Below are positions 18,221 to 23,057 of a stretch of 45,046 bases of DNA, piece after piece. Positions within the stretch are counted from its first letter, which is position 1. The number at the start of each line of letters is the position of its first letter. The notes beneath the pieces were generated by a model. It was not told the DNA's origin, did no database searches, and saw only the letters and a program-made list of their open reading frames with translations. Origin of the DNA: an uncultured Eubacteriales bacterium (lineage in GTDB: Bacteria; Bacillota; Clostridia; Saccharofermentanales; Saccharofermentanaceae); NCBI GenBank assembly GCA_900317035.1, contig ONFC01000018.1, forward strand, positions 1 through 45,046, given 5' to 3'. The position numbers and the translations under genes are program-made.

Positions 18221-19260
18221 TGCCGAAGAAATTCATCCTGGACATGGATCTTCCTTCCTGGGAAGAATATATGAAAGAGAAGGGATACCCGAAATTCCGG
18301 GCATCGCAGGTCTTTTCCTGGTGCAGCAAAGGCGTGATCGACCTCGATAAGATGTCGAATGTTCCTGCAAATATCAAGGATTCTCTCCGTGAGGACTTCG
18401 TGGTCGAGAGCATGAGTATCGAAAAGCATCTCGTATCGGAGATCGACGGGACCCAGAAATTCGTGTTCCGCCTTTACGACGGCCACTGTATCGAAACGGT
18501 TCTGATGCGGTATAAGACCGGTCTTTCGATCTGTATCTCCTCACAGGCCGGGTGTAAGATGGGATGCCGCTTCTGCGCATCGGCACATGCGGGCTTCGGA
18601 AGATCCCTGACAAGAGGCGAGATGCTGGGTCAGGTGCTGCTTGCGGGTGCTTTTGCCGGCGAAAGGATCCATAGCGTCGTAGTGATGGGCATCGGTGAGC
18701 CATTTGACAATTATGAGGAACTGATTGGTTTCCTGCACCTCGCGAATGACGAAAAAGGGCTGAATCTAGGCGCTAGACACATCACGGTGTCAACTTGCGG
18801 ACTTGTACCGCAAATGATACAATTTTCTTTGATCGATATGCAGGTGAATCTGTCTGTTTCTCTACATGCGCCGAATGATGAGCTCCGAAAGAGCATCATG
18901 CCGATCGCAAACCGGTATAGTCTAAAAGAACTTCTTGAGGCCTGCCGGACATATGAGAAAAATACGAACCGCAGGATCACTTTCGAGTATTCGCTGTTTG
19001 ATGGGGTAAATGATACTCCAGAGTGTGCCCGAGAGCTGTGCCGTGTCCTTAAAGGGATCCACTGTCATATCAATCTGATCGCCGCCAATGAATTTGACGG
19101 AAGCCCGTTCCATAGAAGTAAGCCCGGTTCGGTCCGGGCGTTCCAGGATCTTCTGGAAAAGGCCGGGATGACCGTAACTCTGCGGCGTGAGATGGGAACT
19201 GATATTATGGCCGCCTGTGGTCAGTTGCGCAGAGGCCTGCAGGAGAAGAAACTGACATGA
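18220..19260 (+). CDS. rlmN: Dual-specificity 23S rRNA/tRNA adenine-C2 methyltransferase
   Basis: Radical-SAM enzyme making m2A2503 in 23S rRNA and m2A37 in some tRNAs. It has 346 residues. C112, C116 and C119 (AGCKMGCRFCAS) bind the [4Fe-4S] cluster; MGIGEPFDNYEELI near 155 is the SAM GEP motif; NLSVSLHAPNDELR follows near 208; C333 in MAACGQLRRG is the methyl-carrying cysteine near the C-terminus. The start overlaps the rsmB stop by a single base. The product is shorter and slightly more divergent around the cluster than typical RlmN (CASAHAGF in place of CATG), but all catalytic cysteines are in place. Its stop overlaps the next start by 4 bases. Confidence 0.95.
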   Translation: MPKKFILDMDLPSWEEYMKEKGYPKFRASQVFSWCSKGVIDLDKMSNVPANIKDSLREDFVVESMSIEKHLVSEIDGTQKFVFRLYDGHCIETVLMRYKTGLSICISSQAGCKMGCRFCASAHAGFGRSLTRGEMLGQVLLAGAFAGERIHSVVVMGIGEPFDNYEELIGFLHLANDEKGLNLGARHITVSTCGLVPQMIQFSLIDMQVNLSVSLHAPNDELRKSIMPIANRYSLKELLEACRTYEKNTNRRITFEYSLFDGVNDTPECARELCRVLKGIHCHINLIAANEFDGSPFHRSKPGSVRAFQDLLEKAGMTVTLRREMGTDIMAACGQLRRGLQEKKLT

Positions 19261-20012
19261 AAGTAGTGAGTGTATCCGACACCGGTCTGGTACGCACAAA
19301 CAATGAAGATTGTCTTTCTGTGTTTTCCGTCGGCAAGGACGAGTGTTTCGTGATTGCGGACGGTATGGGTGGTCATGCGGCCGGAGAACTGGCTAGTAAG
19401 ACCGCGGTCGAATATGTCACGCAGTCTCTTAATGAATATCTTTTTGAAGCGGATGATGCCCAGAAACTTCAGAAGCTCCTCGCATTTACCCTGGAAAAGG
19501 CAAACGTTAAAGTGTATCTGGCTTCTTTAGGAAGTTTCCGTTACCGCGGAATGGGTACGACCCTTACGGTGGCTGTTCTTCGTGATAAGACCCTGTATAT
19601 CTCACATATCGGCGATTGCCGTGTGTATCTGCTCCACGGACAGAGAATGAAGACGCTTACAACGGATCATACACTCGTTCAGAGAATGGTCGATAAGGGA
19701 ATGATCACCAAGGAAGAAGCCAGAAGTCATCCGAAAAGACATGTGCTTCTCCGCTCTCTTGGGGTGAATGAATATGTTAAGCCGGATACCTTCTCAGTTG
19801 AAATTAGCAACGGAGATGTTATACTGTTATGTTCAGACGGTCTTTATGGCTGTGTGGAAGATAAGACGATACGTGCAGTGCTGCGGAAACACAAGGATCT
19901 GAATTACTGTCTGCAGCTGCTGAAGGACCTGGCGGAGGCAGCCGGTGCTCCTGATAATATATCGATGATCATCGCGGAATGCGAGGTCCGAAAAGGTAAG
20001 GAGAGAACATGA
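19257..20012 (+). CDS. prpC: PP2C-family Ser/Thr protein phosphatase, partner of the PASTA kinase
   Basis: Metal-dependent phosphatase that reverses phosphorylation by the adjacent kinase. The product has 251 residues with the PPM motifs in order: VRTNNEDCLSVF (residues 13-24), ADGMGGHAAGE (about 35-45), YRGMGTTLTVAVL, HIGDCRVYLL (about 119), LLCSDGLYGCVED (about 191) and APDNISMII (about 233). The four acidic metal ligands (in NNED, DGMGG, CSDG, PDN) are all present. It overlaps rlmN upstream and the kinase downstream by 4 bases each (ATGA), so the phosphatase and kinase are translationally coupled. No membrane segment; cytoplasmic. Confidence 0.95.
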   Translation: MKVVSVSDTGLVRTNNEDCLSVFSVGKDECFVIADGMGGHAAGELASKTAVEYVTQSLNEYLFEADDAQKLQKLLAFTLEKANVKVYLASLGSFRYRGMGTTLTVAVLRDKTLYISHIGDCRVYLLHGQRMKTLTTDHTLVQRMVDKGMITKEEARSHPKRHVLLRSLGVNEYVKPDTFSVEISNGDVILLCSDGLYGCVEDKTIRAVLRKHKDLNYCLQLLKDLAEAAGAPDNISMIIAECEVRKGKERT

Positions 20013-22105
20013 GTGCAAATATGAGCCCTGAGGGCATGATCTTAGGCGGAAGATACAGGATCATTAAACTGATCGGCAGTGGCGGTATGGCAGACGTGTA
20101 TCTGGCATCCGATCTTTCTTCCGGCATGAACGTGGCGATCAAGATCCTGAAACAGGAGTTTGCCTCCAATGTCGAGTTTATTAAACGCTTTGATACGGAA
20201 GCAAAAGCTGCTTCGTCGCTTTCGCATGCGAATATTGTTCATGTATTTGGTGTCGGTCAGGAAGGCAATATCCGTTATATGGTCCAGGAGTACGTGGAAG
20301 GTATCACGGTAAAAGATATGATCCTTCAGAACGGACATCTGGACTGGAAAGTAGCTGTCCCTGTCGTTATTCAGGTGGGAATGGCACTGGATACCGCGCA
20401 TCAGAACGGCATTGTACACAGAGATATTAAGCCGCACAATATTCTTATTACGCGTGACCGTATTGCAAAGGTGACCGACTTCGGTATCGCGCATGCATCT
20501 ACCAATCATACGATCACGCTTACTTCCGGCGGTGCGCTCGGATCCGTTCACTATTTTTCTCCGGAGCAGGCCAGAGGCGGCATCGTCAGTCCGAGTTCAG
20601 ATATTTACTCTCTCGGCGTTACTCTATTTGAGATGGTTACCGGACGTGTTCCTTTCGATGGAGAGAACTCGGTAGCGATTGCCGTGAAACATCTTCAGGA
20701 ACCTGTTCCGTATGCGTCTAACTTCGTACCGGGTATTCCGCAGGGTCTTGATGCAATTATTCAGAAAGCCATGCAGAAAGATCCGAAACTCCGTTATAAG
20801 TCTATCCGGGAAATGGTTACTGAACTGGATGCACTTATGGTCGATCCGAACGGATCTTACGGTATCGTTGATGCCAATAGTGTGGAAACGCCGAAGGAGC
20901 CTCTGGATGCTACCGGTGTTTCTCCGGTCATCCGTCAGGAGCCGAACTACGGAAAACTCAAGGATATTGAACGTTCCATCAAGACCAGAAGAAGATCCAG
21001 ATGGAAGGATAATCTGATCGTCGCAGTCGTTGTGGTGCTGATCATCGGTATTCTGATCGGTCTTACGTACCTTGTCACTGACACACTGAAAAAGTCGGTG
21101 AAGCAGGAGACACAAAGTGTTTTTGTCGTCCAGGATTATGTCGGGAAAAAGATCTCTGAGGTACAGCAGAACTTCACGGAGCATGGATTTACAACATATA
21201 AGATCGAATACGAAGTTCGTTCCGACTATGCTGAAGATGTTGTAATTAAGCAGAATATACAGCCGGGCATGGAGATGAAGAATAACAGTTCCGTGAATGT
21301 GCTTGTGCTGACAGTTAGTAAGGCGCCAAAGGATGTGGAGCTTGAGGATTATTACGGCCAGCAGTACTGGAAGATCTACGAGAAGCTGAAGGTAGACGGT
21401 TATGTTGTCCGTACCCGTCCGGAAATCAATAATGATGTGGATGAGGGTATAGTCCTTCGAACAGATCCGCCGGCAGGTACACCGGTGAAACCGAATTCCG
21501 AGATCACGATCATCTTCAGTGAGAAATCATCTGAGATCGAGGTGCCGGATATTATCAAAATGGATCTGGAAACAGCAAGAACGACGATCGATGAGACTGG
21601 CCTTGTACTGTCTTCAGTAGAAATGAGCCCTGAACTTCAGGCGCAGAACCTGAGTGAAAAGGACCTGTTTGTCATGCTTACGGATCCTGCTCCGGGAACG
21701 AAAGTACAGAGAAAGTCTGCGATCCGTATCTATGTTGGAAATGCCGAGGATGTTGCCAGAGGCGGTACCCCGACTCCGACACCGGAAGTGATCGGTTTTA
21801 ACGTGCATCTTGTTGCATCCGGTCAGGGTTCTGTCGGTGGAGAAGGTGTCTATGCACCGTTTGTGGCCTGGGTAGATGAGAATAATACTCCTATCAGTTA
21901 TTCTTCGACATACTCGTTTATTATGCCTGAAAAGGATGTGACGCTGACGGCTGTATTTGAACCGACGCCGACACCTTCGCCGATTCCTACGAATACACCG
22001 GTTCCGACTCCGACGCTGTCTCCGACACCGACACCGACTCCGGTACCTCCGCCGCCTCCGCCGCCGGATAACCAGAACCAGGATCCTGAAGTGATCACCG
22101 GCTGA
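20009..22105 (+). CDS. pknB: PASTA-domain Ser/Thr protein kinase with an extra C-terminal InlB-like repeat and Thr-Pro tail
   Basis: Membrane receptor kinase of the PrkC/PknB/Stk1 group, sensing peptidoglycan and controlling wall synthesis and division. It has 698 residues. The cytoplasmic kinase domain (about 10-275) has the Gly loop IGSGGMADVYLA, K45, HRDIKPHNIL (D139), DFG, and an activation loop rich in Thr. A single membrane helix lies at about 336-358. Outside the cell are three PASTA repeats (about 372-440, 441-508, 509-580), each with the DP.PG turn or close to it. The remainder is unusual: a domain of about 55 residues (about 593-648) ending YSFIMPEKDVTLTAVFEPT, the pattern of InlB B-repeat/bacterial repeat domains, then a 50-residue tail of TPTPTP and eight prolines, possibly spanning the wall. 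It overlaps the phosphatase gene by 4 bases. Confidence 0.95.
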   Translation: MSANMSPEGMILGGRYRIIKLIGSGGMADVYLASDLSSGMNVAIKILKQEFASNVEFIKRFDTEAKAASSLSHANIVHVFGVGQEGNIRYMVQEYVEGITVKDMILQNGHLDWKVAVPVVIQVGMALDTAHQNGIVHRDIKPHNILITRDRIAKVTDFGIAHASTNHTITLTSGGALGSVHYFSPEQARGGIVSPSSDIYSLGVTLFEMVTGRVPFDGENSVAIAVKHLQEPVPYASNFVPGIPQGLDAIIQKAMQKDPKLRYKSIREMVTELDALMVDPNGSYGIVDANSVETPKEPLDATGVSPVIRQEPNYGKLKDIERSIKTRRRSRWKDNLIVAVVVVLIIGILIGLTYLVTDTLKKSVKQETQSVFVVQDYVGKKISEVQQNFTEHGFTTYKIEYEVRSDYAEDVVIKQNIQPGMEMKNNSSVNVLVLTVSKAPKDVELEDYYGQQYWKIYEKLKVDGYVVRTRPEINNDVDEGIVLRTDPPAGTPVKPNSEITIIFSEKSSEIEVPDIIKMDLETARTTIDETGLVLSSVEMSPELQAQNLSEKDLFVMLTDPAPGTKVQRKSAIRIYVGNAEDVARGGTPTPTPEVIGFNVHLVASGQGSVGGEGVYAPFVAWVDENNTPISYSSTYSFIMPEKDVTLTAVFEPTPTPSPIPTNTPVPTPTLSPTPTPTPVPPPPPPPDNQNQDPEVITG
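21959..22066 (+). repeat. Low-complexity CCGAC-type repeat encoding the Thr-Pro tail of the kinase
   Basis: Degenerate hexamer-like units (CCGACA, CCGACT, CCTACG) encode alternating Thr-Pro/Ser-Pro pairs followed by a run of Pro codons. Such tracts change length easily by slippage, and the six-base unit keeps the frame. Confidence 0.75.
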
Positions 22106-22151
22106 TCTTATGGCTGTAGGATCTAGATTTATAGGAGATATGAGCTGATCT

Positions 22152-23057
22152 ATGGAGGATTCCAGAAAAAAGGGCAGGATCACAAAAGGGGTCGGAGGTG
22201 AATACACGATCCTTCTTGATGATGGAGAATATGTTCTTGCTAAGCCGAGAGGTATTTTCCGGAATAAAAAGGTGATTCCGACCGTAGGGGATTTCTGTGA
22301 GGTTGAGCCTTCCGGAGATCCGGATATTCCATATGTGATCGTATCTATCGGGGACAGGAAGAATCTCCTTGTCCGTCCGAGTGTTGCGAATATTGATGTG
22401 CTGATCATTGCCGTTTCTACTGCAGATCCGGAACCTGATCTAAAACTGCTCGACAAGCTTTTGATCCTGTGTCCGAAGCTCGATATCGATCCGCTGATTT
22501 GGCTGACGAAGACCGATCTCTCAAGACAGAAAGCTGATACTCTTATCAAAGAGTATTCCGATGCGGGATTCCATGTTGTCGAGTCGTCTCATGACCAGAT
22601 GCTTCCGGATGAGAAGATCCATGAGATATTCTGCGGCCATACTGTCGGCATCGCAGGACAATCCGGTGTCGGAAAGTCTACTCTCTGCCACCGCCTGACC
22701 GGCATGGATAAGATCGAGGTCGGCAGTATAAGCGAAAGACTTAAGCGGGGAAAACATACGACCCGTCATGTGGAACTTTTTCCGTTTGAAGGCGGTTTCC
22801 TGATTGATACTCCCGGTTTCTCCTCTCTGGATGTCGATAGGATCGGAATTGAAGAAGAGGATCTGATCGGAGGATATCCGGAACTTCTGAGGATCGCCGG
22901 GAAGTGCCGGTTCCAGGATTGCCGTCATAACGGCGAACTGGGGTGCAGGATACAAGAAAGTGGGATTTCCGATGCAAGACTTGCGCGTTATCGTGAGTTT
23001 TTGGATATAATATTAGTGAATTCGAAGAAATACGGAAAAAAGAAGGAAGGTCTGTAA
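22152..23057 (+). CDS. rsgA: Ribosome small-subunit-dependent GTPase A
   Basis: Circularly permuted GTPase that checks late 30S maturation. It has 301 residues. An N-terminal OB fold (about 5-70) precedes the permuted G domain: G4-like LTKTDLS near 118, then G1 GQSGVGKST at 169-177, and G3 DTPGFSS near 219. The C-terminal zinc site is C252, C257, H259 and C264 in CRFQDCRHNGELGC. The usual NKxD is TKTD here, which is common in this family. It lies 46 bases downstream of the kinase; in many Firmicutes the PASTA kinase sits in the same operon as rsgA. Confidence 0.97.
   Translation: MEDSRKKGRITKGVGGEYTILLDDGEYVLAKPRGIFRNKKVIPTVGDFCEVEPSGDPDIPYVIVSIGDRKNLLVRPSVANIDVLIIAVSTADPEPDLKLLDKLLILCPKLDIDPLIWLTKTDLSRQKADTLIKEYSDAGFHVVESSHDQMLPDEKIHEIFCGHTVGIAGQSGVGKSTLCHRLTGMDKIEVGSISERLKRGKHTTRHVELFPFEGGFLIDTPGFSSLDVDRIGIEEEDLIGGYPELLRIAGKCRFQDCRHNGELGCRIQESGISDARLARYREFLDIILVNSKKYGKKKEGL

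Follow-up and report, generated by a model that had tools for sequence, protein, structure and literature searches.

The window, by which we mean the whole stretch of 45,046 nucleotides that was analysed, carries a gene for a PASTA-type Ser/Thr kinase in the gene order rsmB-rlmN-stp-prkC-rsgA-rpe-thiN, which is the usual order for PrkC. The kinase gene, its immediate neighbours and the parts of its product lie at the following positions.

19257..20012, plus strand: Stp1/IreP-type PP2C phosphatase (NF033484, 257.5 bits, cut-off 230)
20009..22105, plus strand: Stk1/PrkC-family PASTA Ser/Thr kinase, 698 aa (NF033483, PF00069)
20054..20800, plus strand: protein kinase domain, aa 16-264 (PF00069; HRDIKPHN motif at aa 137-144)
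21008..21079, plus strand: putative transmembrane segment, aa 334-357 (hydrophobic run read off the sequence)
21128..21307, plus strand: PASTA 1, aa 374-433 (PF03793; boundaries from a local profile)
21335..21514, plus strand: PASTA 2, aa 443-502 (PF03793; boundaries from a local profile)
21536..21736, plus strand: PASTA 3, aa 510-576 (PF03793; boundaries from a local profile)
21767..21784, plus strand: TPTPTP linker, aa 587-592 (identical in all 34 family sequences of alignment A1)
21797..21859, plus strand: N-terminal remnant of an InlB B-repeat-like domain, aa 597-617 (family profile positions 1-30)
21859..21860, plus strand: point at which 45 bp (15 codons) are deleted in frame (comparison with DNA from the four nearest relatives; alignment)
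21860..21958, plus strand: C-terminal remnant of the InlB B-repeat-like domain, aa 618-650 (PF18998 positions 37-72; family profile 47-79)
21959..22102, plus strand: Thr-Pro/poly-Pro tail, aa 651-698, 48 residues, 62.5% Pro+Thr (sequence composition)
22152..23057, plus strand: RsgA, ribosome small subunit-dependent GTPase A, downstream of the kinase (TIGR00157, 182.3 bits, cut-off 100)

The kinase gave a full-length equivalog match to NF033483 over aa 9-576, scoring 524.4 bits and lying above the curated cut-off of 450, and the Pkinase domain (PF00069) scored 165.8 bits. The three PASTA repeats named in the preliminary description are present as three Pfam stretches (PF03793), the exact limits of the repeats being those of a locally built model. 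The 3' end of the phosphatase gene overlaps the start of the kinase gene by 4 bases, and the combination that characterizes Stk1/PrkC, namely kinase and PASTA domains with an adjoining Stp phosphatase, was found (Pfam, NF033484). Judged by these matches, the kinase is taken as the PrkC orthologue and not as an unusual paralogue. On the minus strand, an Arg-rich open reading frame of 311 codons (21614-22549) faces the Thr/Pro codons of the kinase gene; it was disregarded as a probable mirror artefact of Thr/Pro codon use.

The preliminary description had let a 55-residue InlB-like domain and a proline-rich tail begin at 21780, a start that is approximately right: the linker in fact begins at 21767, and the domain follows from 21797. 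The tail is there with the length and composition given above, and the InlB B-repeat-type ending of the added segment is confirmed: the InlB-like segment (aa 597-650) ends in FIMPEKDVTLTAVF, and the divergent InlB B-repeat profile PF18998 matched the isolated segment with 26.8 bits (cut-off 23.6, E 5.2e-6), which by profile statistics is more than a chance match. The suggested HMM search against InlB families thus succeeded on the isolated segment, and it fell just below the 23.6 cut-off in a scan of the whole kinase (22.2 bits, aa 618-653). Among the aligned family domains the window copy scored 23.9 against the gathering cut-off of 23.6, a comparison with the cut-off that concerns the window copy only. 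The segment does not qualify as a complete domain. It matches only the C-terminal half of the PF18998 profile (positions 37-72 of 73), 15 residues being deleted, and a profile built from the family matches the segment in two pieces, positions 1-30 and 47-79 of 79. A search of the own genome with this family profile up to E 10 gave no match beyond the kinase segment. The original observation is therefore partly confirmed, being real but incomplete: the signal was true, and a truncated domain had been taken as complete.

Comparison with the DNA of the four nearest relatives located the loss. All four carry 45 extra bases between the YAP (or YPT) codons and the FV(A/C)W codons, and the lost 15 residues read NSAVTISAVPSIGYQ in the nearest relative, whose kinase is 94% identical. 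Apart from the 15 deleted columns, the structured part of 22 aligned genus kinases shows no gap confined to one genome, the 23rd member (L020) being left out because its kinase is cut at the start. Across the family, the deleted segment is kept in 109 of 110 readable orthologues, with the window as the lone exception. The spacing to the domain tryptophan is 34 in the window versus 47-55 in 96 other family tails; in 13 further tails this measurement failed owing to an upstream tryptophan, and reading by eye shows the segment present.

The selection acting on the kinase parts was estimated from pairs of genus members (22 of 23, L020 left out). Median dN/dS rose from 0.021 in the kinase domain through 0.118 in PASTA and 0.184 in the InlB-like domain to 0.361 in the tail, with 195-227 of 231 pairs giving a defined ratio; these values are rough, as many pairs approach saturation at synonymous sites and the pairs are not independent. 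On such ratios, the InlB-like domain is under purifying selection somewhat weaker than that on PASTA, and the tail is far less constrained. For the 56 domain codons remaining in the window, comparison with the nearest relative gave a dN/dS of 0.112 (18.5 synonymous and 9.5 other differences). Because the remaining codons still appear constrained, the deletion would be recent, or an error, or would have left a remnant with residual function, and the constraint speaks against a long-dead domain. The 45-bp deletion is most likely recent or an assembly error.

Structures of the intact domain from a relative (L058) and of the window domain were predicted with the same six sequences as alignment for both. 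The intact domain was modelled with a pLDDT of 94.5, a pTM of 0.79 and eight strand segments, and the window domain with a pLDDT of 66.5 and a pTM of 0.39. Mapped on the L058 model, the deletion wholly removes the strand at residues 32-39 plus the turn after it. When the intact model was compared with the PDB by Foldseek, the first match was the InlB B-repeat 2y5p (probability 1.00, TM 0.58/0.62) at a weak E of 0.096, with no match at E <= 0.001. The structure prediction that had been proposed as a check thus points to InlB for the intact relative, at a weak E, and yielded a poor model for the window. VIA placed 2y5p third with a Z of 6.4 beside Ig and FN3 chains at Z 5-6, scores in a range (under 8) where the tool warns of a merely common arrangement; the sequence profile match is to PF18998. 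The top VIA entry was a Treponema sialidase domain (Z 7.3 and 6.9), tied with InlB within 1 Z. In a sequence profile search of the PDB, 2y5p came second of nine weak matches (E 0.27). Given that sequence profile and structure agree, we take the intact domain to be InlB-like, the structural score alone being modest. The window model had no InlB chain among the best 50 of its 85 PDB matches, which at its low confidence cannot exclude the fold. With its central strand gone, the window domain has probably lost its folding. The preliminary description had proposed binding of a wall polymer or protein by this domain; with the central strand deleted and the model of low confidence, the window domain probably cannot play this role. 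The interpretation first offered is, overall, partly supported.

In the family, PF18998 matched all 34 aligned domains including that of the window at E <= 0.01 (best E 8.1e-20), PF09479 matched 17 of the 34, and the complete domain in relatives is about 70 residues long. Alignment A1 leaves out L031, which has two domains, and alignment A2 leaves out both L031 and the window. Within the domain itself, the residues that never vary in A1 are G, G, F, W and F, which in view of the Pfam family are presumably core residues. Labelled relatives are metagenome bins assigned to Clostridiales or Clostridiaceae, three of them from water buffalo or sheep gut; the family is presumably the Saccharofermentanaceae of GTDB. 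The 23 tails of the genus span 43-117 aa with 42-71% Pro+Thr. A tandem pair of InlB-like domains follows PASTA 3 in two kinases, L026 (and L060) and L031, and part of a sister genus (L194, L197, L202-L204, L206-L210, L214) carries an insertion of about 10 residues before the last strand, often DPDGDPLTPTTIN or similar.

The distribution of the architecture was followed with a profile spanning PASTA 3 and the domain. The order sample held 188 genomes, 115 in the family of the window and 73 in three other families. A single spanning match was found in 109 of the 115, and one more (G123) had a partial match at positions 32-161; the remaining five were without a readable C-terminus of the orthologue, one kinase being cut at a contig edge and four genomes having no full-length match. 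The domain profile matched all 110 readable kinase tails of the family. By contrast, none of the 73 other-family genomes gave a spanning match among up to 20 candidates scored per genome. Among the matches listed for samples of 391 genomes from the class and 398 from the phylum, with up to nine candidates scored per genome, no spanning match outside the family appeared; the 11 family members among the class matches all spanned, and the own genome was the only family member among the phylum matches. Because the profile was trained on the family, these counts could miss a fusion with a very different linker. Forty regions with a domain-bearing open reading frame (33 outside the family; inside it G029, G028, G010, G156, G169, G093 and G034), chosen by open-frame length among the matches listed, had no kinase or PASTA match in any of their open reading frames, and 56 pattern matches on viral contigs searched for the domain yielded none confirmed. 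As far as sampled, the PASTA3-InlB-like fusion thus appears to be a trait of one family and not a general feature of clostridial PASTA kinases. Domains matching the family profile also occur on large unrelated surface proteins of family and other genomes.

The preliminary description had further assumed that PrkC/PknB proteins typically stop at the last PASTA repeat or shortly beyond it, which is not what we found. Among 75 non-family PASTA kinases taken from the 80 nearest database matches, and so not a random sample, 74 continue for over 30 residues past the last PASTA, with a median of 101. Within the order, 20 non-family kinases were read by eye, from 20 of 24 genomes (fragment-only G042, G048, G051 and G054 left out); in 12 the tail is clearly rich in Thr/Pro or Thr and lacks an InlB-like domain, and the others end shortly or carry one more PASTA-like repeat. 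Six of these 20 loci (L047, L050, L052-L055), which were not parsed by motif and stand outside the tail-length counts, showed no InlB module when read individually.

The published PrkC structure that serves for comparison is presumably that of Staphylococcus aureus. In PrkC, an Ig-like domain is described behind three PASTA domains, and adhesive or peptidoglycan-binding properties are suggested for it (PMC3601408). According to two further papers, Bacillus subtilis PrkC has been studied with constructs that include the Ig-like domain, its autophosphorylation persisting without the PASTA repeats (PMC5786024), and an SGN-rich segment of Clostridioides difficile PrkC is dispensable for phosphorylation and septal localisation (PMC9674922). 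Because 74 of 75 kinases extend and an Ig-like domain is known at this place, the family module occupies a position held by another module or tail elsewhere: a distal module or tail is common in PASTA kinases, and its kind differs by lineage. PrkC (Stk1) with a C-terminal Ig-like domain shares with the family kinase the kinase domain, one membrane pass, PASTA repeats and one small distal beta domain, whereas the distal domain of the family is InlB B-repeat-like (PF18998) and Thr/Pro-flanked, and truncated in the window. C. difficile PrkC shares a low-complexity segment beyond the PASTA repeats, but here this segment is Thr/Pro instead of Ser/Gly/Asn, there are three PASTA repeats instead of two, and a beta domain lies between (PMC9674922). 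With the Listeria monocytogenes InlB B-repeat (2y5p; PF18998/PF09479) the domain shares the profile match, the first Foldseek match and the W and FIMP...AVF landmarks; unlike it, the domain is single copy (tandem in two kinases) and belongs to a membrane kinase, not to a surface protein, and its structural score is modest. The open-licence literature searched gave no report of a PASTA kinase that carries an InlB-like domain, and the portion consulted of one paper that names PASTA kinases does not mention the combination (PMC1262709). Divergent InlB B-repeat domains are reported for proteins similar to one dextran-selected and one pectin-selected clone (PMC10076258); this was not counted in favour of sugar binding, since the selected clones themselves are given there without a Pfam match.

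Both components of the extension recur on other proteins. Four consecutive Thr-Pro codon pairs occur at eight places of the own genome, in eight non-kinase proteins; the four compared with Pfam are a transpeptidase with a PASTA match, a PGA_cap, a transglutaminase-like and a FecR protein. Being present in eight other proteins, Thr/Pro tracts look like a general spacer of the organism. One of these proteins (L251:1-1707, G000:C213) is a penicillin-binding transpeptidase with a PASTA match and, near its end, TPTPTPTP plus an acidic stretch, apparently within the last PASTA repeat; in L246, L248 and L250, the tracts lie in PGA_cap capsule-synthesis, FecR and transglutaminase-like proteins. In another genome of the family (L243:2-1531, G029), an L,D-transpeptidase (YkuD) is followed by an InlB-like domain and a Thr/Pro tail. 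As judged by profile, the InlB-like module is thus common to the PrkC kinase and a wall enzyme.

A kinase of the PrkC family, a module present throughout one family of the order, a confident model of the intact domain and a deletion in the assembly are established by these results. Our preferred reading, to which we assign a probability of about 0.6, is that the extension is a lineage-specific distal wall-side module of PrkC with a presumed anchoring function, broken here by a recent deletion or a misassembly. The gene product would be the Stk1/PrkC-type cell-wall-sensing kinase of the organism. In the ancestor of the family, an InlB B-repeat-like beta domain may have become fixed after the third PASTA and before the Thr/Pro-rich tail, at the place where other Firmicutes PrkC have an Ig-like domain or another tail. 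The PASTA rod would bind peptidoglycan, the Thr/Pro linker and tail would provide reach, and the small beta domain may hold or position the far end in the wall. Catalysis and septal targeting would be independent of the domain, as suggested by PrkC of other species. In the window genome, loss of the central strand would probably leave the domain unfolded and at most a flexible spacer, with a presumable loss of function.

It is possible, if on the unlikely side, that the 45 bp are missing only through an error in the assembly or consensus of the metagenome bin, the real protein being complete like its 109 relatives. The species is represented by a single, fragmented assembly of 234 contigs, the gap is found in just one of 110 tails, and the remaining codons are still constrained, all of which fits such an error. 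However, the deletion is exactly in frame in a gene that is otherwise open, and no clear flanking direct repeat that an assembler could collapse was seen by eye at the junction 21859/21860.

Rather more doubtful is the proposal that the whole extension is a neutral spacer, in which Thr/Pro tracts and domain merely lengthen the ectodomain and loss of the domain is harmless. The fast evolution of the tail (dN/dS 0.36) and the Thr/Pro tracts in eight other proteins of the own genome are compatible with it, as are the autophosphorylation and septal arrival reported for C. difficile PrkC without its SGN-rich tail (PMC9674922) and the tolerance of a broken domain by the window, if its sequence is correct. 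Against it, every one of the 110 readable orthologues has the domain, 109 of them including the deleted segment, and the domain appears to be under purifying selection somewhat weaker than that on PASTA.

That the domain is a ligand-binding sensor for a specific wall glycopolymer or surface protein, reporting the state of the outer wall to the kinase, seems unlikely. Presence throughout the family under purifying selection, the distal position behind a linker and the occurrence of the module on an L,D-transpeptidase are in line with a sensor, and the PrkC Ig-like domain at the same place has been suggested to bind peptidoglycan (PMC3601408). Against this, large, unrelated surface proteins of these and other genomes carry profile-matching domains as well, and the domain is broken in the window. 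The invariant G, G, F, W and F of the domain also count against a sensor, since they resemble core residues of the Pfam family. Finally, we consider it quite improbable that the whole family gave up a probably peptidoglycan-contacting PrkC module and took in its place an InlB-like domain that binds another ligand, the window genome having lost that input but retained sensing through PASTA.

PASTA kinases have a central part in regulating wall growth, and the ligands of their outermost domains are unsettled. The locus represents a genuine but modest variation on the architecture of a known kinase family, carried by 110 orthologues and damaged in the window copy, and it illustrates that a reader of one genome can take a damaged domain for a complete one. 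Were the module swap true, the wall-sensing kinase of this family would read another outer-wall polymer or protein. A family with a different conserved far-end module together with one broken member would allow a direct comparison between a module that gives the kinase input and one that gives reach only.
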